Shown here: piece by piece, positions 11,964 through 52,969 of the stretch | Position numbering within the stretch: the first letter of the stretch is position 1 | Layout of the letters: the number at the start of each line of letters is the position of its first letter | NCBI GenBank assembly: GCA_027592325.1 | Contig: JAQCKO010000007.1 | Span: 1 to 57,296 of the forward strand | Reading direction: 5' to 3' | DNA length: 57,296 nt | Source: a bacterium | GTDB taxonomy: Bacteria > Patescibacteriota > Patescibacteriia > UBA9934 | Notes under the pieces: generated by a model | What the model saw: only the letters and a program-made list of their open reading frames with translations | Told to the model about the DNA's origin: nothing | Databases searched by the model: none | Translations under genes and position numbers: made by a program

Positions 11964-11997
11964 AAATACTCAAATCACCGTTTCGTACATTTGCAAG

Positions 11998-12283
11998 TTG
12001 TGACGAAATCGCTTCGCTTCTTCGTCACAACGGCGGCGATAGGCGCCGCCGTTAGCTGAAATATTCCTTTTCTTATTCGAGCTACCGCCCAATTATTTTA
12101 AAAATTTGGAAATTTTTAAAACAACCGACCGTCGTCGGAAAAGAAAACGAATACATCAGCTAACAGCGTATATCTGGTTCGCGCTTGCCTAACGGCAAAT
12201 GCTCACCCATATTGCTCCCTGCGGTCGCAACATCAGATATACGCGAACGTTGTGACGAAATCGCTTCGCTTTTTCGTACAACT
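11998..12283. repeat. foldback/palindrome-rich intergenic element
   Basis: Hairpin gttgtgacgaaatcgcttcgcttcttcgtcacaac (11998-12032) recurs at 12249-12283; central palindrome ttttaaaaatttggaaatttttaaaa (12096-12121); flanks roughly inverted (ttagctgaaatattccttttcttattcg vs cgaatacatcagctaa). Confidence 0.65.
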
Positions 12284-12313: not shown

Positions 12314-12357
12314 ACCCCCTCCTGCGACCTACGCAAGGAGGGGGTTGAGTTTTTTTT
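12314..12357 (+). terminator. rho-independent terminator-like hairpin
   Basis: accccctcct...aggagggggt then T8. Confidence 0.7.
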
Positions 12358-12370
12358 GGTTCGCGCGACC

Positions 12371-14332
12371 CTAACGCGTTCCAAACGGGTCGGCGGCAAC
12401 CTCGGCGCCGAAGATGGTCTCGACCACGCCACCGAAGGTACCCGCACAGAGGAGCAGCATGGCGCCAAGCATCGTCAGTGCCAGAAGCACGTAGAAGCTG
12501 CGAAGGATAGCCGTCATTGCGCCATCAATGAGATTCTCCTTTTTCTCTTGCGTGATCGCGTCTCGCCAGTTGCGCGTCAGCTCAGCTAGCACAACAATTG
12601 AGAGAAGGGCGCTGTACCCGAGACCGGCAAGCGTCGTGATGCCGGCTTCCATGCTGAACTGACGGAGGGTATACAGCGCTGCTGACCCAGTCAGTCCGAG
12701 CATGAGGAACAGCGCTACCGCATTCACTACCACCGAAAAGATGATCAGCATCCCGGTGATGGGTGCCGGTTTCTTTTTTGGGTTCGGATAGCTTTGAGAG
12801 TCGATGTTAATCCGATCCGGTTCGTCTGCACTCGTATCGCGCGAACCTTGGAGGAAGCTCAGGAAGCTGTCCCCAGGGTTGATCGCGCCCGCGCTCGTCA
12901 TGATCTTGTTGAGCGCGGTTTCAAGCGGCGGGAAGCCGAATCGAACGCCAAACACCGTGATTCCGGCAAGCAGCGTTTGGGCCATCATCTTGCGAATTAG
13001 TCCCAGGTCCCTCATCGCTTCTCCAGCGTTCTGTGAGAGCCAGATGAGGTTACTGCCGAGGGTGTAAACACCGAAGGAGGCTCCGCCAACCAGGTCGATG
13101 ACCATGGTTGTCGGTACAGCGAGCAGCAGAGCAGCGGGAATGCCGGCGAGCAAGGCTGCGCTCACCACCCAACTCATGCGCATCTTGGCCGCGGACCCAT
13201 TCCACATGGCGTCACGCAAGTCATGGAGCGCGTGGAAGCTGAACCAGCCGGGCCAGTACTCGCTTGCGCGCAGATCCGCAACGAGCGGCATGATCATGAC
13301 GAACTTCGCAGCCTTCATGTCATCGAATGGCAGGCTGGTGAGACCATGCCTCTCAATCACGGCGCGCAGCTCGTCCTGGTCATCCTTCTGCCACGCGGTG
13401 AGCGCAGCAAGGGCGCGGACGGCCGCGCCATCGAGGGTAGCCGCTTCGTCCTTCGGCGGCGTATAGCCCTCGAAGGTCTGCCAGCACAGGTAGAGGCCGC
13501 CAAAGGCCCCCATCAGCTGAAGAAGGCCAGTGACAACCATCAGCCGCAAGCTGACAGCCTGATACCACCAGCGCCCTTCAAGCACAACCCACTTCCCAAG
13601 GCCTTCGTAGATGCCGATGGTCAACAGGGTCATCCAGCCGGTCGCGCAGGCAAAGACCAGGACGGTCAATACCGCGGTTCCCAGCCAGGCCATGGCGACG
13701 GAATCAATCTTCGGCGTCTTGATGCCGAAAATCTGGTCATGGTCGAGTTTTGCGTACTCCAGCAAGACCTTTCGCAGCTTGCGCAGCGTCGCCTGGAAGG
13801 CCGTGTCTCTGGCTTCTTTGGCCGCTTCTTTGCGCCTCAGGCCCTCCATAATGCGCGCTAGCACGGGGAGCTTGTCGGCATCCTCGAACTGGTGTCGTTC
13901 GGCTGCCTTCTCGATGGTGGCGGTGACTTTGGTCTGCAGCGCAGCCTTGTCTAGCTCGAACTTCGGCTGACCTTGTTGGGCTCCTTGCCTGCGTTTGATC
14001 GCCCCCTTCAGACTGTCCGACGCCTCGTTGAGCGCCCGGAATATCACCATGATCACGGCGCGTAGGCGCGGATCAGGTACTAAGTGAGTCAGTGCGCTGA
14101 GCACGTTCATGAGGAACTGCAGTGCCGTCGGCGATATACCAACATGGTTCAATGCCGCGTCGACGGCGTCGGTCAGCCTTGCGGCCAAATCCGTTGCCGG
14201 GGTGTCCTTGTCTACCTTGCTGAAGAAATTCTGGATGAAGTCATCCGTCAGCTCTCCAGCAATGGCAGATTGGAATCCCGCATCCGTAAGCGCGTTTCCA
14301 AGGAAGCTCTTCACACTGTCGATGTTTGACAT
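12371..14332 (-). CDS. multi-TM membrane protein of unknown function, GC-rich
   Basis: Start MSNIDSVKSFLGNAL preceded by ctggagatcaag SD; several hydrophobic segments (WLGTAVLTVLVFACATGWMTLLTIGI etc.). Confidence 0.75.
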   Translation of the reverse strand: MSNIDSVKSFLGNALTDAGFQSAIAGELTDDFIQNFFSKVDKDTPATDLAARLTDAVDAALNHVGISPTALQFLMNVLSALTHLVPDPRLRAVIMVIFRALNEASDSLKGAIKRRQGAQQGQPKFELDKAALQTKVTATIEKAAERHQFEDADKLPVLARIMEGLRRKEAAKEARDTAFQATLRKLRKVLLEYAKLDHDQIFGIKTPKIDSVAMAWLGTAVLTVLVFACATGWMTLLTIGIYEGLGKWVVLEGRWWYQAVSLRLMVVTGLLQLMGAFGGLYLCWQTFEGYTPPKDEAATLDGAAVRALAALTAWQKDDQDELRAVIERHGLTSLPFDDMKAAKFVMIMPLVADLRASEYWPGWFSFHALHDLRDAMWNGSAAKMRMSWVVSAALLAGIPAALLLAVPTTMVIDLVGGASFGVYTLGSNLIWLSQNAGEAMRDLGLIRKMMAQTLLAGITVFGVRFGFPPLETALNKIMTSAGAINPGDSFLSFLQGSRDTSADEPDRINIDSQSYPNPKKKPAPITGMLIIFSVVVNAVALFLMLGLTGSAALYTLRQFSMEAGITTLAGLGYSALLSIVVLAELTRNWRDAITQEKKENLIDGAMTAILRSFYVLLALTMLGAMLLLCAGTFGGVVETIFGAEVAADPFGTR

Positions 14333-14404
14333 CTTGATCTCCAGTATCTGTTGTTGTCTTTTATGGAACGAATTGAGCAGTCTCATGAGCTGAGACTGAC
14401 CGCA

Positions 14405-14508
14405 AAACGTACCATAAAATACCCATTTTGTCAATCTATTTCATGAATCATGCATGCTGAGCGAAATTCCTGTCGATATTGACAAAATGGGTATTTTATG
14501 GTACGTTT
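14405..14508. promoter_or_regulatory. mirrored divergent promoter: perfect 31-bp inverted repeat
   Basis: 14405-14435 is the exact reverse complement of 14478-14508; each arm carries TTGACA-N17-TACGTT reading outward. Confidence 0.85.
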
Positions 14509-14572
14509 ACACGTCGAGTTTTGAACGGAATAAGCCGTTTCACGACTCGTAATCTTCGATACGGAGCTACTC

Positions 14573-15841: not shown

Positions 15842-15880
15842 AACGCCCACCCGGCGATCCGGGCGGGCGTTCTTCTTTTT
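15842..15880 (+). terminator. rho-independent terminator
   Basis: cgcccacccggcgatccgggcgggcg followed by ttcttcttttt. Confidence 0.8.
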
Positions 15881-15897
15881 CACAATTTCTATGTATG

Positions 15898-16281
15898 TTA
15901 TCCAGAGACTCCAGCCGTTGTTAAGCTGCTAAGAACGAATTGGGTAATCGCATATGCAGAAAGCATGATAATGATTCCCACAACGCCATTGAGAAGCAAT
16001 TTCTTGGCCTTTTTAATATTATCGTCACTTCCCCCAGCGGTTGCCCAGAGGAATCCGGCATAAATCACCATAACAAGGAAGACGATCCCAAGAAGTCCAA
16101 GAAGAATGCTAATGACAGTACCAATGGTTTCTTCAAGACTCTGGTCATTAAGATCCGCAGCATCATTTACTTGGCCAAGACCGACATCAATTTCGACGGC
16201 GTGAGCAGTGAATGAGAGGCCGAATAGGCCGGTGAGGGCAATGATTCCGATCGTAGAGATCTTTTTAAGCGCATTTGTCAT
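15898..16281 (-). CDS. VirB2/TrbC-like (T4SS_pilin-type) small two-TM protein
   Basis: Signal peptide; ETIGTVISILLGLLGIVFLVMVIYAGFLWATAGGSDDNIKKAKKLLLNGVVGIIIMLSAYAIT. Confidence 0.85.
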   Translation of the reverse strand: MTNALKKISTIGIIALTGLFGLSFTAHAVEIDVGLGQVNDAADLNDQSLEETIGTVISILLGLLGIVFLVMVIYAGFLWATAGGSDDNIKKAKKLLLNGVVGIIIMLSAYAITQFVLSSLTTAGVSG

Positions 16282-16326
16282 AAGATATGTTTAGTCGATT
16301 ATACCAAATTATTCGTGGCGCGTGTA

Positions 16327-16710
16327 TTAGAGTACAGGCGAGTCGGTAAGGAGCCCAAGAACAAAGGTGGTGATGGCATAAGACGAAAGCATGAGCACCA
16401 TTCCAATAACACCGTTTACGAGGAGCTTTTTTGCCTTTTTAATATTCTCGTCGCTTCCAGCGGCCGTTGCCCAGAGGAATCCAGCATAGACAGTAAGAAT
16501 AAGGAAGAAAATTCCTAAAAGGCCAAGTGCCGCACGAATGAGTTGTCCAATAAGCGTTGGGAGATTTTGAGCCGTATCTATGTTTGCGCTATTTGCCGTT
16601 GGTGTCACGATGCTATCTACACCAAAATCGATCGCATGCGTCGGTTCTCCAGGCAAAGCAATGAGCAATATGACTGCAAATACTGCGATAAAAAATCTAC
16701 ACATATACAA
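16327..16710 (-). CDS. VirB2/TrbC-like (T4SS_pilin-type) small two-TM protein
   Basis: LLGIFFLILTVYAGFLWATAAGSDENIKKAKKLLVNGVIGMVLMLSSYAITTFVL. Confidence 0.85.
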   Translation of the reverse strand: MYMCRFFIAVFAVILLIALPGEPTHAIDFGVDSIVTPTANSANIDTAQNLPTLIGQLIRAALGLLGIFFLILTVYAGFLWATAAGSDENIKKAKKLLVNGVIGMVLMLSSYAITTFVLGLLTDSPVL

Positions 16711-16718
16711 TAGAATTA

Positions 16719-17120
16719 TTAAGGCGCAGGGGTTCCACCACCGGCGCCGGTTATTGATCCAACACTGATTGCATTAATGACGGCAACGGTAATCACATAG
16801 GCAGAAGCAATAAGCACCACACCAATCACAGCGGTTTGCATCATAGTCTTTGCTTTTCCGACTTGCGTTGTATTCCCCGCAGCGGTCAGGTAGAGAAATC
16901 CCGCATAGGTGAAAAAGAGCATAAAAACGAGACCAACAATGCCAAAGGCAGGCAAGAGAATGCGTGTACCAATGTATTCAGAAAGTGACAGCGACTCCCC
17001 GTAGATGGGGCTTCCTGTTGCTTCAAGTCCAGATTCGCTCGGTGTGAGCACGGTCTGCGCCATTGCAAAACTTGGCAAGAAAACAATAGTAAGGGCGATA
17101 ACGGCGAGAATTCGTCGCAT
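16719..17120 (-). CDS. VirB2/TrbC-like (T4SS_pilin-type) small two-TM protein
   Basis: Start MRRILAVIALTIVF; GLVFMLFFTYAGFLYLTAAGNTTQVGKAKTMMQTAVIGVVLIASAYVIT. Confidence 0.8.
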   Translation of the reverse strand: MRRILAVIALTIVFLPSFAMAQTVLTPSESGLEATGSPIYGESLSLSEYIGTRILLPAFGIVGLVFMLFFTYAGFLYLTAAGNTTQVGKAKTMMQTAVIGVVLIASAYVITVAVINAISVGSITGAGGGTPAP

Positions 17121-17163
17121 AATGAAAGGTCGAAAGTGTTTTCGACCAATCATCATGGGGCGA

Positions 17164-17589
17164 TTAGCTTGATGCATTGAGAAGCGACGAGAGAACGAAG
17201 CTTGTAATGGCGTAGGCAGAGAGGATAATCGCGAGCCCAATGACACCTGCAATAAGGAGCTTTTTTGCGTCGTCGGTTTTCGTTGTATTTCCACCGGCTG
17301 TCATATATTTGAATCCACCAATGAGGACAATAACAACGGCTACAATTCCAAGGAGCCCGAGCACAACACTGATAATGCCCCCAATCGTTGTTTCAAAATC
17401 TTGATTCCCAAGACCAGTGCTTGATTGGAATTCCGGGGAAAGCAAGTCTTCGACTTGAAGTGAACCTCCACCATCATCAACCGTACCCTGCGCGTGAGCG
17501 AATTGGGTGATGGCAAAAAATGGAAGAGCAATGAGCGTACCGACAAGGGCGCTAACTGCAAACGTAATAAGTGAACGAGTCATAAGCAT
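17164..17589 (-). CDS. VirB2/TrbC-like (T4SS_pilin-type) small two-TM protein
   Basis: VVLGLLGIVAVVIVLIGGFKYMTAGGNTTKTDDAKKLLIAGVIGLAIILSAYAITSFVLSSL. Confidence 0.85.
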   Translation of the reverse strand: MLMTRSLITFAVSALVGTLIALPFFAITQFAHAQGTVDDGGGSLQVEDLLSPEFQSSTGLGNQDFETTIGGIISVVLGLLGIVAVVIVLIGGFKYMTAGGNTTKTDDAKKLLIAGVIGLAIILSAYAITSFVLSSLLNASS

Positions 17590-17619
17590 GGGTTAATGTT
17601 TTGGCTTTTGGTGATTGAA

Positions 17620-18006
17620 TTAACTGGTTACATTTCCTGTTGTCACAGCATTGAAAACTGCCGTAGTCGCAACGTAAGCAGATGCAATGACGACAATGCC
17701 GATGATGGACCACACGAGAATCTTCTTTGCTTTTTCTACAGGGCCTGGCCTTCCACCTGCTGTGAGAAAGAGCAATCCACTATAAATAAACATGAGAAGC
17801 GCAACCGTTCCTGAAACAGAAAGCGCTGCTTGAATGAGACGCGCCACAATGAGACGCGGATCACTGATTCCTATGGGGTTTGCGATCGTTGCCGCCATGG
17901 CTACTGCGGGAGATGTAAAAAGTGCAATCACGGCCAGCCATAGTTGCCGTTTCATACGCCGAATTATAGCATAGCGCCAAGTGAGCGCGTGGTTTATCCA
18001 CTGCAT
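17620..18006 (-). CDS. VirB2/TrbC-like (T4SS_pilin-type) small two-TM protein
   Basis: VALLMFIYSGLLFLTAGGRPGPVEKAKKILVWSIIGIVVIASAYVATTAVFNAV. Confidence 0.82.
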   Translation of the reverse strand: MQWINHALTWRYAIIRRMKRQLWLAVIALFTSPAVAMAATIANPIGISDPRLIVARLIQAALSVSGTVALLMFIYSGLLFLTAGGRPGPVEKAKKILVWSIIGIVVIASAYVATTAVFNAVTTGNVTS

Positions 18007-18521
18007 TATGGCGAACTCGCGCCTTCGAAGGGTGCATTCTCGACCGGACGTAGTTCAAGCGCATCTTCGAGTGTATCGTCTGGCTCGGGGAGTTCTCCCG
18101 TTTTGACGACGGTGAGTAAAATTACAATGAGCGCATAAGAGCTCATCATAATCACAAATCCAACAATTGCGGCAACAATGATGCGCTTTCCACTATCGAT
18201 GCGCGTAGAGTTGCCCTCTGATGTGAGCCAGGTTATTCCTCCCCAAATAAACATAAGAAGCAACATAGAGCCGCTTATGCCGAGCAAAAAGACGCCAGCA
18301 TTTACGAGTAGCTGCAGCATATCCTCAAGCGTACAGTCGCCTGTTTCGCGGCAGGGACACGGACCCCCGGTACAGATTCCAGCAAAAATGAGGCCTTCGC
18401 GCTGAATGTCTTCGTAGGTTGAGGAAGACTGTGCAAGCGCAGGTTTTGGAGCCGATAAGAGAACGGCGATTGTTGCGCTTGCTGTTAGTATGGTTACAAA
18501 AAAATACAGAGCACGTTTCAT
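18006..18521 (-). CDS. VirB2/TrbC-like (T4SS_pilin-type) two-TM protein with Cys-rich insertion
   Basis: GSMLLLMFIWGGITWLTSEGNSTRIDSGKRIIVAAIVGFVIMMSSYALIVILL; CTGGPCPCRETGDC. Confidence 0.8.
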   Translation of the reverse strand: MKRALYFFVTILTASATIAVLLSAPKPALAQSSSTYEDIQREGLIFAGICTGGPCPCRETGDCTLEDMLQLLVNAGVFLLGISGSMLLLMFIWGGITWLTSEGNSTRIDSGKRIIVAAIVGFVIMMSSYALIVILLTVVKTGELPEPDDTLEDALELRPVENAPFEGASSP

Positions 18522-25216: not shown

Positions 25217-26560
25217 ATGAATGAAAAACGGGTAAGACAGCTGAATACGGCTGATTATAAAGGCGGGATCATTGTGTATTGGATGGATCGTGATGAGCGG
25301 TATCGGCACAATCATGCGCTTCTGTATGCGGGAGCCCAGGCGAAGGAGCATAATGCTCCTCTGGTTGTTGTGTTTAATCTCGTTGTCGACTTTTTGAGTG
25401 GCGGTATGCGTCAATTTGATTTCAAGCGTCGCGGGCTAAGAGAGCTGCAAGATACATTTATAAAGCATGGTATCGCGTTTACGATTTTGCTTACCGATGA
25501 TTCCCCGCGTGACTTATTACATTTTTTTCAAGAGGTGCAGGCTGGCATGGTGGTGACAGATTTTTCTCCGCTTCGTATTCAGCGAACATGGAAACGGGCC
25601 GTAAAAAAAGAGCTCAAGATCCCATTTTTTGAAGTCGATGCGCATAATATTGTCCCTGTTTGGGAGGTAAGTGAGAAAAAAGAATTTGCCGCGTACACCA
25701 TTCGAAAAAAAATTCATACACAGTTGCCAGAATTTTTAGTCGATTATCCACGCATGCCAGAAGTGAAAACCATACGCGCGCCGAAAACAGATTGGGAGGC
25801 GATTCAGAACGTGAAGCTTGATGGTCCGGACATTGTAGACACGTCCTCAGGGGAAAGAGCGGCGCATAATACACTGCGAAGGTTTATTGCATCGCGCCTT
25901 GATGGCTATGCCGAGAAGCGTAACGATCCGAATGAAGAAGCGCTTTCTGGACTCTCGCCGTATTTGCATTATGGGCAAATCTCTCCGCAATATGTTGCTC
26001 TCAGCGTCCGAGGCGCAAATGCTCCTCTTAACGATCGTGAAGCCTTTTTAGAAGAGCTTATTGTTCGCCGCGAACTTGCAGACAATTTTTGCTATTACGA
26101 ACCAAAATACGATGCATTCGAGGGCTTTCATGAATGGGCGCGAAAGAGCCTCGATGAACATCGGAAAGACAAACGTGAATATGTGTATACCCGCGCACAA
26201 TTTGAAAAGGCAAAAACGCATGACAATCTTTGGAATGCGGCGCAGCGGGAAGTGGTAGATACGGGAAAAATGCATGGATACATGCGCATGTACTGGGCAA
26301 AGAAGATTTTAGAATGGACTGAGTCGCCGGAAGATGCGCTGAAAATCGCGATCTACTTAAATGACAAATACGAGCTTGATGGCCGCGACCCGAATGGATA
26401 TGTAGGGATTGCGTGGTCGATTGGCGGCGTACACGACCGTGCGTGGAATGAGCGGCCAATTTTTGGAAAAGTCCGTTATATGAATGCAAATGGCGCAAAG
26501 CGAAAATTCGATACAGAAGGGTATATTCGGCGATTTTTGGGAGAAGATAAATTTATCTAG
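25217..26560 (+). CDS. phrB: class II CPD DNA photolyase
   Basis: IVYWMDRDERYRHNHALLYAG; 'LSPYLHYGQISPQYVAL'; 'LWNAAQREVVDTGKMHGYMRMYWAKKILEWTESPEDAL...NDKYELDGRDPNGYVGIAWSIGGVHDRAWNERPIFGKVRYM'. Confidence 0.95.
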   Translation: MNEKRVRQLNTADYKGGIIVYWMDRDERYRHNHALLYAGAQAKEHNAPLVVVFNLVVDFLSGGMRQFDFKRRGLRELQDTFIKHGIAFTILLTDDSPRDLLHFFQEVQAGMVVTDFSPLRIQRTWKRAVKKELKIPFFEVDAHNIVPVWEVSEKKEFAAYTIRKKIHTQLPEFLVDYPRMPEVKTIRAPKTDWEAIQNVKLDGPDIVDTSSGERAAHNTLRRFIASRLDGYAEKRNDPNEEALSGLSPYLHYGQISPQYVALSVRGANAPLNDREAFLEELIVRRELADNFCYYEPKYDAFEGFHEWARKSLDEHRKDKREYVYTRAQFEKAKTHDNLWNAAQREVVDTGKMHGYMRMYWAKKILEWTESPEDALKIAIYLNDKYELDGRDPNGYVGIAWSIGGVHDRAWNERPIFGKVRYMNANGAKRKFDTEGYIRRFLGEDKFI

Positions 26561-41205: not shown

Positions 41206-41607
41206 ATGAATATTGGAATTGTCTACGGAACCTTTCATAAAGAAGTGGAGGAAATTATGCTAAAGGCAGCCGAAAAAGAGGCTGCTGAGCTTGGTATTGA
41301 GGTTGTGGAGCGTGTTCCTGTGCCGGGTTCGGTAGAAAAACCACTCGCGGCGAAGCGTCTGTTGATGCGTGATGATATCGACGGTGTGGTCTTGCTCGGG
41401 ATTATTGAGCGGGGAGAAACGAAACATGGATTCATCATGGGGCAGTCGCTCATGCATGTTGCCATGCAGCTTTCGCTTGAGTTTATGAAGCCAGTGACAC
41501 TTGGGGTAATTGGACCAGAAGTTTTGCCAGAACAAATTGCGCCAAGACTTGAGGCATATGCGAAAAAAGCGGTAAACGCTCAGAAACAGTTATTCACAGA
41601 ATCTTGA
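41206..41607 (+). CDS. ribH: 6,7-dimethyl-8-ribityllumazine synthase-like protein
   Basis: VERVPVPGSVEKPLAAKRLL...DGVVLLGIIERGETKHGFIMGQSLMHVAMQLSLEFMKPVTLGVIGP. Confidence 0.85.
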   Translation: MNIGIVYGTFHKEVEEIMLKAAEKEAAELGIEVVERVPVPGSVEKPLAAKRLLMRDDIDGVVLLGIIERGETKHGFIMGQSLMHVAMQLSLEFMKPVTLGVIGPEVLPEQIAPRLEAYAKKAVNAQKQLFTES

Positions 41608-41785
41608 CAAGAAAAACAAGCTGTTTTACTATCTTTTTAGATATGCAATCTTTCTTCGGAACAATTATTTGCAAGTTTTACGTCATTCGTCTGCTGACGC
41701 TTGGCTGGAATTTTGCATAATTGTTTTGAGACACAAATAGCGATTTTGCAAGATGCCAGTCGGAATCGGTTGGCATCTTTCTTTG
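41604..41785 (+). ncRNA. candidate short transcript (sRNA or 25-aa peptide mRNA)
   Basis: TTGACA-N17-TACTAT (41604-41632); 25-codon ORF MQSFFGTIICKFYVIRLLTLGWNFA from ATG 41643; terminator gatgccagtcggaatcggttggcatctttcttt. Confidence 0.45.
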
Positions 41786-41873
41786 TACACACATCTTATG
41801 AGGACTGAGGGGTTACTCCTAGGATGTGCGCACAAAGCGTACAAATCGTCTCCCTTCGGGGATTGTGGAGGAA

Positions 41874-42098
41874 ATGATGCGTGGAGATCACTACGAGCTT
41901 GATGGATTTTTCGATCCCAACCGGTCGGGTGCTCGCCTTCAGAAAAGGGGGCATGCCGCCGACAAGCCCTCGGAGGGCGCCATTCAACCTGGTACCAGCG
42001 GTGACAAGCGCCGTTTCAGCATCGGTTGTCCAGCGCCCGGTCCGCAGCTCGTCGAGCCACCCGTGAACCCGGTCATCACGACCATTATGCCCCAGTAG
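41874..42098 (+). CDS. short GC-rich hypothetical protein
   Basis: GTGGAGGAA SD before ATGATG; MMRGDHYELDGFFDPNRSGARLQKRGHAADKPSEG... Confidence 0.35.
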   Translation: MMRGDHYELDGFFDPNRSGARLQKRGHAADKPSEGAIQPGTSGDKRRFSIGCPAPGPQLVEPPVNPVITTIMPQ

Positions 42099-42111
42099 GA
42101 GCACTAGAACG

Positions 42112-42309
42112 ATGCAGCTAGATCCCTTACTTCGGTTCGAGAGCAGTGGGACCTCTGGTTTTCCTCCTGATTCCGGCGACACTCCGCTCGTCCAGACGCA
42201 CTGTCTCGACGGTTCCGTAGCCCCGCCGCGCAAGCAGGTGCGCGGTCTGCCTCGTCCCACGGTCCTTGCGGGCCTGCAGTCACTGCAGTGGTCCACGGGA
42301 CCGCTCTAG
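42112..42309 (+). CDS. short GC-rich hypothetical protein
   Basis: SD-like AGGAG before ATG 42112; followed by terminator cccccgtcagcacggctggcgggggagttt. Confidence 0.3.
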   Translation: MQLDPLLRFESSGTSGFPPDSGDTPLVQTHCLDGSVAPPRKQVRGLPRPTVLAGLQSLQWSTGPL

Positions 42310-42559
42310 CGCTTCGGCGCACCTCTCGCGGCATGTAGCGTCCAGCTACTGCGTCCGCCGGGCACTCGCCCGAACTCTATTCCCCCGTCAGCACGGCTGG
42401 CGGGGGAGTTTCATTTGCGTTGGAATCGTTGTATCGCAGCGCTCGATGAATTTGTTGGTTTCGAAATCAGATTCGTTATTCACCCTCTTTGAGGGGTATT
42501 TCATTCATATGTCTGGAAAAATAGATTCTTCGACCTCGTTTCGTTAGAAGGGACTTCGC

Positions 42560-42680
42560 GCAGAAAAACCGCAATTTCCTGCCTGCCCGGCCCGTCCGGC
42601 TCCGCCGTGACTCCGCCGGGAACGAAGTGAAGGATCTATTCGATACGATGGATCCCTGCCTTCGCAGGGATGACGAAATA
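42560..42680. repeat. dispersed repeat block F
   Basis: gaacgaagtgaaggatctattcgatacgatggatccctgccttcgcagggatgacgaaat. Confidence 0.8.
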
Positions 42681-42889
42681 CCCGATTGCTAAATCCCGTC
42701 AATACAGCTGCGCCACAGCAGATAAATCGTTCACTGTATTTCCGTCAGAGTCGGGCAGGTAGGGACCGAAGTGCTTGTCCCTCGAAGCTTCGAAGAAGCG
42801 AAGTGGGAAGACTTACTTGAACGTACGTTGAACGAGGACCGAAGCTGCAAGCCTGCAGATGCAGTGATTTAAGTGTTCCGACTTCCAAA

Positions 42890-42931
42890 ATAAAAGCGGG
42901 CCGTCTTCTAAAAGAGAGGACGACCCGCGAG
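42890..42931 (-). terminator. rho-independent terminator (minus strand)
   Basis: Reverse complement gcgggtcgtcctctc...gaagacggcccgcttttatttt. Confidence 0.75.
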
Positions 42932-42933
42932 GG

Positions 42934-43530
42934 TCACTTGGAGGCCTGGTGATAGCCGGGCTTTCCGTAGCGAGGTCCATGCGACCGCTCTGGGCGCTGG
43001 AGCCAGGCGTGGTAGGTGCCGCGAAGCTCATCGTGAAGGACACGCAGTCCATGGAGCACACGCCCCCAAACGACGCTGCGCACCGTCACAGATGCGCCCA
43101 CGATCCCTTCTCGCCAGAGCGCATTGCGAAGCTGGATTGCGGCCCGAGGACCGTGATACCAGCAGGTGACGAGCGTAATGTTGCCAATGCTGTTACCGGT
43201 ATCGATGAACGCCTTGATATTGCACGCCGCCACAGCGCAGTCACCGAAGGTATTCATGTTGGTTCCGCCATTATTGGCGGGGGAGCATGGAACCCCTGCG
43301 GCTTTGATCAGCCGCACCATCTCGGCGAGGTCTTCGCCGTGAACGGGCGCTGCGTCCCCGCAGGGAATCACGACGACATGCTCACCCATTGTTGCAAGCC
43401 GCTTCGCGACCGCGACCGCTTTCTCTGTCCTTGCCGGATCGAAACGACCTTCATCGTCTCCTCGCGCAGGGAAGCCATGCGCATTCAGCCGCGGTCCGTT
43501 CAGAACCACAACGACATAATTTTTCTGCAT
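42934..43530 (-). CDS. DUF218/YdcF-SanA-like protein, GC-rich
   Basis: 'GGTNMNTFGDCAVAACNIKAFIDTGNSIGNITLVTCWYHGPRAAIQLRNALWREGI' matches the nT..nA...LVTs.yH.pRA pattern; start at second M. Confidence 0.6.
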   Translation of the reverse strand: MQKNYVVVVLNGPRLNAHGFPARGDDEGRFDPARTEKAVAVAKRLATMGEHVVVIPCGDAAPVHGEDLAEMVRLIKAAGVPCSPANNGGTNMNTFGDCAVAACNIKAFIDTGNSIGNITLVTCWYHGPRAAIQLRNALWREGIVGASVTVRSVVWGRVLHGLRVLHDELRGTYHAWLQRPERSHGPRYGKPGYHQASK

Positions 43531-43595
43531 CACTTGTCTCCAATCTTACATTCACAGGTTGGATCGACCTCTTTCTGGCCGAACCAGCCCGTCAA

Positions 43596-44351
43596 TTAGA
43601 GAATGGTCCAAAGACTATCGAAAATCATGCGCTGGGTGGTGCTAATGGCTTTGTCATCAATCACGGCGCCGAATAATTCGCCTTTTTCGCTTGCGGCAAC
43701 ATAGGCCGTTTTGCGTCCATAGACGAAAATATAACTTGGCGCGGCGCTATCGGTGCGTAGCCATTTGCGTTCATCGAGTCCATGCGTGGTTCCGCCTTCG
43801 CCAATGGCAATGGCTTTCACTTTCACCTTGGCCTGCTTTCTGAGCACATTGTAGCGAGGCATGGCAGCTGCAATGAGGTCACGAATGCCGGCAGATGAAT
43901 ACACACGGTATGTTTTCGATGATTGCTTTTTGGTGTGCGAAAGAACATCCCGGAGCAAGTCGCGCACTCCTTCTCGACCCTCGTAGTATCGAACGGATGG
44001 CTCTTCGCCAGCGCTCCCAAGGAGGTCTTGAAGGTGGGGGATATGCTCCGTCACTTTTTGTCGCGCTTCCTGAATCGCTACTTCACGCCGCGTTAAGAGT
44101 CCCCGTAGCTTTTGTGGGTCCTCGGGCATAAAGTGCCGCCTCGCAGAGCTGTCCACGAAACGAATAAGTCCCGCTTGCTGCAAACGCTTAATGGCGTCAT
44201 ACGTGGTCCCGCGATTCAGGTGCGCTTCTTCTGCAATTCTGCGAAGCGGAGCGGATCCAAGCGTAAGGAGTGTCTTGTAAACAAGATAGTCCCGTTCCTT
44301 TATGCCAAGAAGCTCAATTGTTTGCTTAGATAGAGTAGATTTTGATGCCAT
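43596..44351 (-). CDS. TrmB-family transcriptional regulator
   Basis: LLGIKERDYLVYKTLLTLGSAPLRRIAEEAHLNRGTTYDAIKRLQQAGLIRFV; effector region 'VRYYEGREGVRDLLRDVL'. Confidence 0.85.
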   Translation of the reverse strand: MASKSTLSKQTIELLGIKERDYLVYKTLLTLGSAPLRRIAEEAHLNRGTTYDAIKRLQQAGLIRFVDSSARRHFMPEDPQKLRGLLTRREVAIQEARQKVTEHIPHLQDLLGSAGEEPSVRYYEGREGVRDLLRDVLSHTKKQSSKTYRVYSSAGIRDLIAAAMPRYNVLRKQAKVKVKAIAIGEGGTTHGLDERKWLRTDSAAPSYIFVYGRKTAYVAASEKGELFGAVIDDKAISTTQRMIFDSLWTIL

Positions 44352-45512: not shown

Positions 45513-45539
45513 CAGCTGTTCTTTTTCAGTGGAGGAAAG

Positions 45540-50768: not shown

Positions 50769-50942
50769 AGTATTTTACTAGTATACTATGATGTCTTTCT
50801 GATTTGGAGGTGAGGACATGGAATTCAGTAAGTGGGCAATGGCTGAGGTGGAGAAGTGCAATCACGGGGAGCCTAGCGCGATGATGACCGTCGTATTCTC
50901 TCGCTCGCACAAGCGTCCTTCGGGGCGCTTGATTTTTTTTGC
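50769..50942 (+). ncRNA. candidate short transcription unit (ORF runs into terminator)
   Basis: TTGACG-N17-TATACT promoter; SD ggaggtgag + ATG 50818; terminator caagcgtccttcggggcgcttgatttttttt with no in-frame stop before it. Confidence 0.4.
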
Positions 50943-51946: not shown

Positions 51947-52969
51947 ATGCATAGCACCATTTTTGATAGGGTGCTTCAGAGGAGGTCCGTATGGTTACCT
52001 CATGTTCGCCGCCTCCTCGAGAAGCGCGCGGACCACCTTCGCAAGGAGGCCGTAGAGGAACACGGCCCGGCTGAGAACTGCGGTGTGATCACGCCGGCGT
52101 ATGTAGCCGATGTCTGCGACGCCAATTGTCGCGGCTGTGGGTATGCAAAGTCGGCTGGAGGTCGGCGCTACGTACTGACTGTGGCGCAAATGTGCCAAGA
52201 GATGGCTGCACATGCTGCTGCCATCGGTACCAATAATGCGGCCATCATTGTCCTCACCGGTAGTTACGAGCACGGTTCCATCAGTAAGCGTAACTCGATG
52301 GTCTGGGCGAATGCTATGGGCTGTAAGGCGGCTGCTGAGGCTGGCTTCGGTGTGATTCTTGAGTCCTCTCCGTTCACGCAGGAAGGGTTTGGGGAGATTC
52401 TTGAGGCCATGCCAAGGGCGGCACACGATCGCGCACGATCCACGCTCTTCCAGGAGACGTGGGACCTTAAGCGGTACCGCGCCTTCTGCGGCGAGGACGT
52501 GCCGGAGAACCCGAAGGGCAATCCGGTATCGCGCGCGGAGCAGCACAGGCTCGCCTTCGAGGCGGGGTGGAGGCATGCCGGAGTCGGCGTACTCCTCGGG
52601 CTTGGGTCAGATATCGCGATTGATATCGCCTCTACCATCGCGCAAGCCCACGTGCTGCGCGACATGGGCTACAGGTCGGTCACGATTTCAATCCCGCGTC
52701 TTGTTGGTGGGAGCTTCCCGGAGGCATGGCGCTGCGACGACGAAACGTTCAAGAAGGCGGTCGCCATCTATCGACTGCTCTGTCCTTGGGCGAAGATTCT
52801 CATTACGGCCCGCGAAACGGCTGCAATGAGGGACGAACTTCACGACCTCTGCCACATTCTTGGCGTTCTTGGAACGACCAAGGTGGGAGGGAGGGCGGTC
52901 TATCCGGACCGCGGGATTGAACAATTCAAACTCGCCGATACCCGTACACGGGACGAGCTCGGAGTCTGA
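51947..52969 (+). CDS. ThiH/HydG-like radical SAM protein, GC-rich
   Basis: CDANCRGC (CxxxCxxC); 'FQETWDLKRYRAFCG...PKGNPVSRAEQHRLAFEAGWRHAGVGVLLGLGSDIAIDI...SVTISIPRLVGG' parallels ThiH/HydG ETY..../aGi..vg.G.LlGL/vs.PR. Start codon uncertain. Confidence 0.72.
   Translation: MHSTIFDRVLQRRSVWLPHVRRLLEKRADHLRKEAVEEHGPAENCGVITPAYVADVCDANCRGCGYAKSAGGRRYVLTVAQMCQEMAAHAAAIGTNNAAIIVLTGSYEHGSISKRNSMVWANAMGCKAAAEAGFGVILESSPFTQEGFGEILEAMPRAAHDRARSTLFQETWDLKRYRAFCGEDVPENPKGNPVSRAEQHRLAFEAGWRHAGVGVLLGLGSDIAIDIASTIAQAHVLRDMGYRSVTISIPRLVGGSFPEAWRCDDETFKKAVAIYRLLCPWAKILITARETAAMRDELHDLCHILGVLGTTKVGGRAVYPDRGIEQFKLADTRTRDELGV

Follow-up and report, generated by a model that had tools for sequence, protein, structure and literature searches.

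In the back-to-back divergent sigma70 promoters of bacteria, a single intergenic region contains a pair of outward promoters that serve two transcription units. The locus described here, which lies in a window of 57,296 nucleotides (the whole stretch of DNA analysed), follows the same plan, but differs in that its core promoters are perfect mirrors of one another, including the 17-bp spacer, and in that the layout persists in relatives whose proteins have diverged beyond recognition. Bidirectional promoters that arise from sequence symmetry (Warman et al., PMC12825309) likewise associate symmetric DNA with divergent transcripts, which at our locus are predicted ones. Those are pseudo-symmetrical sequences at which two orientations of polymerase compete, whereas here there is a complete promoter for each direction and the -35 elements of the two arms are 44 bp apart.

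Template switching is documented to homogenise the arms of short inverted repeats (PMC8604942; PMC7202029), imperfect repeats turning perfect as one arm is copied from the other, and this resembles what we propose below. The published events were observed directly between strains, whereas here we infer one, and the starting imperfect repeat would have been two facing promoters. T4SS of patescibacteria that include arrays of VirB2-like pilins have also been described (PMC12102498), and an array of very variable PF18895 pilins adjoins the present cassette; the passages of that account considered here mention no GC-rich divergent cassette attached to such an array.

The inverted repeat and its two promoters

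The two arms of the repeat are exact reverse complements (31 nt, 100% complementary by repeat search) on either side of a 42-nt loop (Table 1), and on inspection each contains TTGACA-N17-TACGTT pointing outward, in agreement with a preliminary description of this DNA. The pair has several distinctive properties. First, no other perfect inverted repeat of the genome is as long, all contigs being considered (826 kb in 21 contigs) and loops of up to 300 allowed; next come two hairpins without a loop, 26 and 25 bp in length, and about 5e-11 such repeats would be expected by chance genome-wide. Second, no extra copy of the 31-mer occurs genome-wide when up to three mismatches are permitted, a search that the preliminary description had proposed, and the repeat is also absent from the genome_contigs collection (as an exact 29-mer) and from viral_contigs (as an exact 24-mer). 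Third, identity between the arms ends within one or two bases of the promoter hexamers; beyond these the flanks agree at 4 of 20 positions upstream and 7 of 20 downstream, and the leaders and the halves of the loop are unrelated. Folding of the region as single-stranded DNA gives the hairpin expected of such a repeat (z -9.6), and since the predicted starts lie outside the arms and the promoters point outward, the hairpin of the repeat would not be transcribed.

Table 1. Features of the divergent locus, in window coordinates.
Feature	Coordinates	Strand	Remarks
Left arm	14405..14435	-	Predicted promoter toward membrane-protein gene; -35 TTGACA 14434-14429; -10 TACGTT 14411-14406, with TGG before -10
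Right arm	14478..14508	+	Predicted promoter toward secreted two-gene operon; -35 14479-14484; -10 14502-14507
Loop between arms	14436..14477		42 bp; halves without mirror similarity
Start-site element GTC	14398..14400	-	5 nt after -10; predicted transcription start region
Start-site element GTC	14513..14515	+	5 nt after -10; predicted transcription start region
Possible 5′ stem-loop, minus transcript	14378..14399	-	CAGTCTCA/TGAGACTG; entire leader no stabler than shuffles (z -0.87)
Possible 5′ stem-loop, plus transcript	14514..14549	+	Leader z -2.2
P0001, 653 aa	12371..14332	-	Several hydrophobic segments; no family match; ATG, GGAG upstream
P0002, 176 aa	14573..15103	+	Signal-like N-terminus; no family match
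P0003, 240 aa	15103..15825	+	Signal-like N-terminus; no family match; overlaps P0002 stop
Terminator-like hairpin, cassette left end	12315..12358		CCCCCTCC...GGAGGGGG; T-rich tails on both strands
Terminator-like hairpin, cassette right end	15842..15882	+	-23.3 kcal/mol, z -4.8; T-rich tail
Small T4SS-pilin-like gene array	15898..18521	-	Adjoins cassette; all three ORFs scanned match PF18895

Among 52 TTGACA motifs that precede genes of this genome and have TAnnnT at a spacing of 15–19, the spacing is 17 in 43. The arms have the same sigma70-type elements, TTGACA, a 17-bp spacer and TAnnnT, and they rank 7 and 8 in the whole genome against a matrix built from 32 of its promoters with the arm locus excluded. 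Judged in this way they are strong native sigma70-type promoters and very probably functional. The native promoter statistics, together with the start-site element and the outward promoters at the equivalent place in relatives (see below), uphold the earlier view of the arms as promoters. The minus-strand promoter had been assigned to a 687-codon ORF; that ORF exists, but its TTG start (14434) is formed by the first bases of the promoter itself, and the start of the minus gene is therefore more probably the ATG at 14332 that gives P0001.

The divergent cassette and its counterparts in relatives

The cassette (12.3–15.9 kb) has a GC content of about 0.56–0.61 against 0.465 for the genome, and sits between a bact-PGI_C gene and the T4SS pilin-like array (PF18895). 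These pilins, together with the size of the genome, suggest a patescibacterium (CPR). It appears to be self-contained. The two back-to-back vegetative sigma70-type promoters would transcribe it outward, with RNA polymerase binding each of them separately and initiating near a conserved GT[C/T]; the minus transcript would encode the 653-aa membrane protein and the plus transcript the two small secreted proteins, and the hairpin terminators would close both ends. Transcription at equal strength and co-expression of the two halves, which the preliminary description took to follow from identical promoters, are plausible consequences, and the products may have a surface role with the pilus. Hairpins at the 5′ end are weakly supported as a general feature of transcript starts. 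To the left of the cassette a hairpin repeat of the TTGTGACGAAATCGCTTCGCTT type is present twice (11996-12030 and 12248-12282) and may be a dispersed repeat of the genome. More GC-rich stretches between AT-richer core genes occur elsewhere in the window (41604-44351 and 51947-52969), possibly cassettes of the same kind.

No convincing homologue of P0001, P0002 or P0003 was found in Pfam, PHROGs or NCBIfam. Neither 145 relatives nor the viral contigs gave a convincing match to P0001 or P0003. For P0001 there was likewise nothing convincing in 380 genomes of the phylum, or in the genome collection, phages and plasmids. The searches of relatives and phylum genomes yielded one marginal match (1e-4 over 83 residues), which is unconvincing, and single-sequence structure models (mean pLDDT 40 and 42) were too poor for use.

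By position, a divergent GC-rich pair is present beside the last T4SS-pilin gene in eleven genomes of the same family (G001, G002, G003, G004, G007, G012, G013, G014, G017, G020 and G022), in which a gene of roughly 530–745 aa is set against one small gene or a pair of them, the majority of these small genes having a signal-like start. In G010 and G008 a large gene adjoins the isomerase gene and the contig ends after it; in G016 the promoter pair is present and the secreted side was read. Other relatives had no such cassette at the places read. Outward sigma70-type promoters were found at every relative locus scored, one promoter of G012 being read by eye. The comparison with equivalent loci that the preliminary description had recommended finds the layout kept and the promoter pairs less similar than here.

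Our cassette shares its position and divergent layout with those beside the pilin arrays of relatives. Neither P0001 nor P0003 is recovered by profiles made from the relatives; sequence homology was seen only among near genera, and a three-sequence test gave one weak match between P0003 and G012. P0001, P0002 and P0003 look like orphans by sequence, but not by position. Their counterparts in relatives may be fast-evolving orthologues, or one slot may have been refilled with similar cassettes. A GC-rich divergent cassette with very diverged proteins recurs beside the pilin array within one family (loci L087, L088, L089, L090, L095, L097, L102, L105, L111, L112 and L114). It was the mirrored pair that led to this divergent cassette, which is conserved in position next to the T4SS pilin array but changes rapidly.

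Origin of the mirrored pair

The spacers of the two promoters of a locus agree at 17 of 17 bases here, at 15 in G004 and G022, 14 in G013, 13 in G007 and G016, and 3–10 in the others; among the loci compared, the perfect mirror is found only in this genome, and relatives range from 3 to 15 of 17 spacer bases. The pair of G004 is identical at 26 of 29 positions and there is no other close copy. Ordinary promoter pairs (n=496) reach at most 11/17, as do pairs of the class marked by GT[C/T] (n=190), and the nearest other promoter of that class in this genome agrees at only 12/17, so a common promoter style fails to explain the perfect copy. Pairs within a locus are more similar than pairs across loci (mean 10.6 versus 8.8; permutation p 0.005), with p 0.03 when this genome is left out and 0.07 when, in addition, each genus is represented by one genome.

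A lineage-specific promoter style accounts for part of the within-locus similarity. In genus g7 both promoters of the locus have the form TTTACTTTTC...TTTTTCTGCTATnnT, and the rnpB promoter there does likewise; in G007, 8% of the pairs of the class match each other as closely as the two promoters of the locus do. The rnpB promoters of g7 (L123, L124) read TTTACTTTTC..TTTTTCTGCTATTCT, a lineage-specific shift from the usual TTGACAAAA style, and the RNase P RNAs at these two loci score under the Rfam gathering cut-off. We considered a dedicated, genus-specific sigma factor for the TTTACTTTTC... promoters of g7 and rejected it because rnpB of those genomes has the same form.

Our preferred interpretation, to which we assign a probability of about 0.6, is that two older outward promoters of one class were lately made identical by template-switch homogenisation. 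An outward pair would predate the species, relatives carrying one at the equivalent place beside the T4SS pilin array; the arms would already have been alike through their common promoter elements, and the segment from -35 to -10 would recently have been made identical, the likeliest route being template switching of the quasipalindrome type, by which one arm would have been copied from its partner. If the conserved hexamers at the ends paired and the middle was copied, identity would stop at the hexamers, as is seen. The 42-nt loop, long for such copying, speaks against homogenisation, and the ancestral imperfect repeat is a presumed one. The preliminary description had suggested recent duplication or gene conversion; this is plausible, and we prefer it in the form of arm homogenisation because the pairs of relatives are imperfect mirrors. 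Complete promoters that mirror one another perfectly are rare in nature, and here two elements that function keeps similar have apparently been copied one onto the other.

The second promoter could also have arisen from the first if a 31-bp promoter piece was recently duplicated, once and in inverted orientation, and perfect identity between unrelated flanks is what such an event would leave. Two outward promoters are, however, already present at this place in relatives, GT[C/T] occurs in the flanks of both arms outside the repeat with unrelated bases intervening, and a random event is not expected to stop exactly at promoter hexamers, all of which makes a duplication improbable. A different proposal, that a shared regulator binds an operator in both arms and that selection keeps the spacers identical for a joint response, would give a reason for spacer identity that sigma70 recognition does not need, and could draw on the dyad AAAAT-N4-ATTTT within each arm and on the GT[C/T] element common to the promoters of the locus. 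The dyad is apparent only, and arises because spacers of the genome's ordinary promoters are A-rich after the -35 and T-rich later. Moreover, the 14-mer is not in excess in the window, the putative operator does not recur at further targets and is not conserved in the spacers of relatives, and the cassette has no regulator gene. We regard such control as unlikely, and the shared dimeric regulator of the preliminary description is not sustained.

A long perfect inverted repeat within DNA of atypical GC content might suggest a mobile element or an invertible switch. We rejected both a MITE or similar element and an invertible promoter switch: the repeat is single-copy in the genome and absent from viral contigs and the genome collection, there is no target-site duplication and no recombinase in the cassette, and with the promoters inside the arms rather than between them a flip of the loop would switch nothing. 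Any origin of this kind is very improbable. Assembly artefact or contaminating DNA is scarcely credible; the GC content of the cassette and the lack of homologues by sequence could be read in that way, but the promoters are of native type, the corresponding place next to the pilin array is occupied in relatives by GC-rich divergent pairs of an equivalent kind, and a sequencing read is longer than the repeat.

The GT[C/T] start-site element

The promoter class to which the mirrored arms belong is a more surprising result than the mirror itself. In an alignment of 27 promoters from 14 loci, G and T occupy positions 6 and 7 after the -10 in all 27, and position 8 is C (78%) or T; the hand-read promoter of G012 also fits this register. 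In this genome GT[C/T] begins exactly 5 nt after the -10 in 23 of 107 promoters, compared with 0–6 at 13 other registers. Of the 25 promoters whose targets are GC-rich (0.52 or more downstream), 20 carry it, compared with only 3 of the 82 others (Fisher p = 3e-14). Across the order, when any gap from 3 to 7 was allowed, it was exactly 5 in about 119 of the 150 matches listed, by hand count, and mean downstream GC was 0.57 in 20 regions sampled from relatives, a figure without a matched control.

This start-site mark sets the promoters of GC-rich, family-less genes apart from the rest. Ten of the targets in this genome were scanned, and two of them matched a family: one has an alpha C-terminal-like domain (PF03118, 4e-11), and the other is a lipoprotein-like sequence with a transglycosylase domain (PF01464, 2e-9). 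We found no description of the element in the open-access literature. GT[C/T] could have a part in initiation, serve as an operator, or exert its effect at the 5′ end of the RNA. Tentatively, and with more doubt than confidence, we propose that it defines a promoter class devoted to the selective expression of genes that evolve fast, are GC-rich and mostly lack a family, within this order, whose members have small genomes, that a dedicated initiation factor reads the element (the alpha C-terminal-like protein being one candidate), and that the mirrored pair is a divergent hub of this class. If 5′-end mapping bears out the mark, it would offer a sequence-only route to listing many unknown genes, which may be expressed together.

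On contig C18 of G000, a minus-strand promoter at 25831 that belongs to the GT[C/T] class precedes the gene for a 162-aa protein with the RNA polymerase alpha C-terminal-like domain (PF03118), and this protein is a candidate co-factor of the class. Within the window, GT[C/T] start-site elements at this register are found at 45518-45520 and 50793-50795 in addition to the two at the arms.
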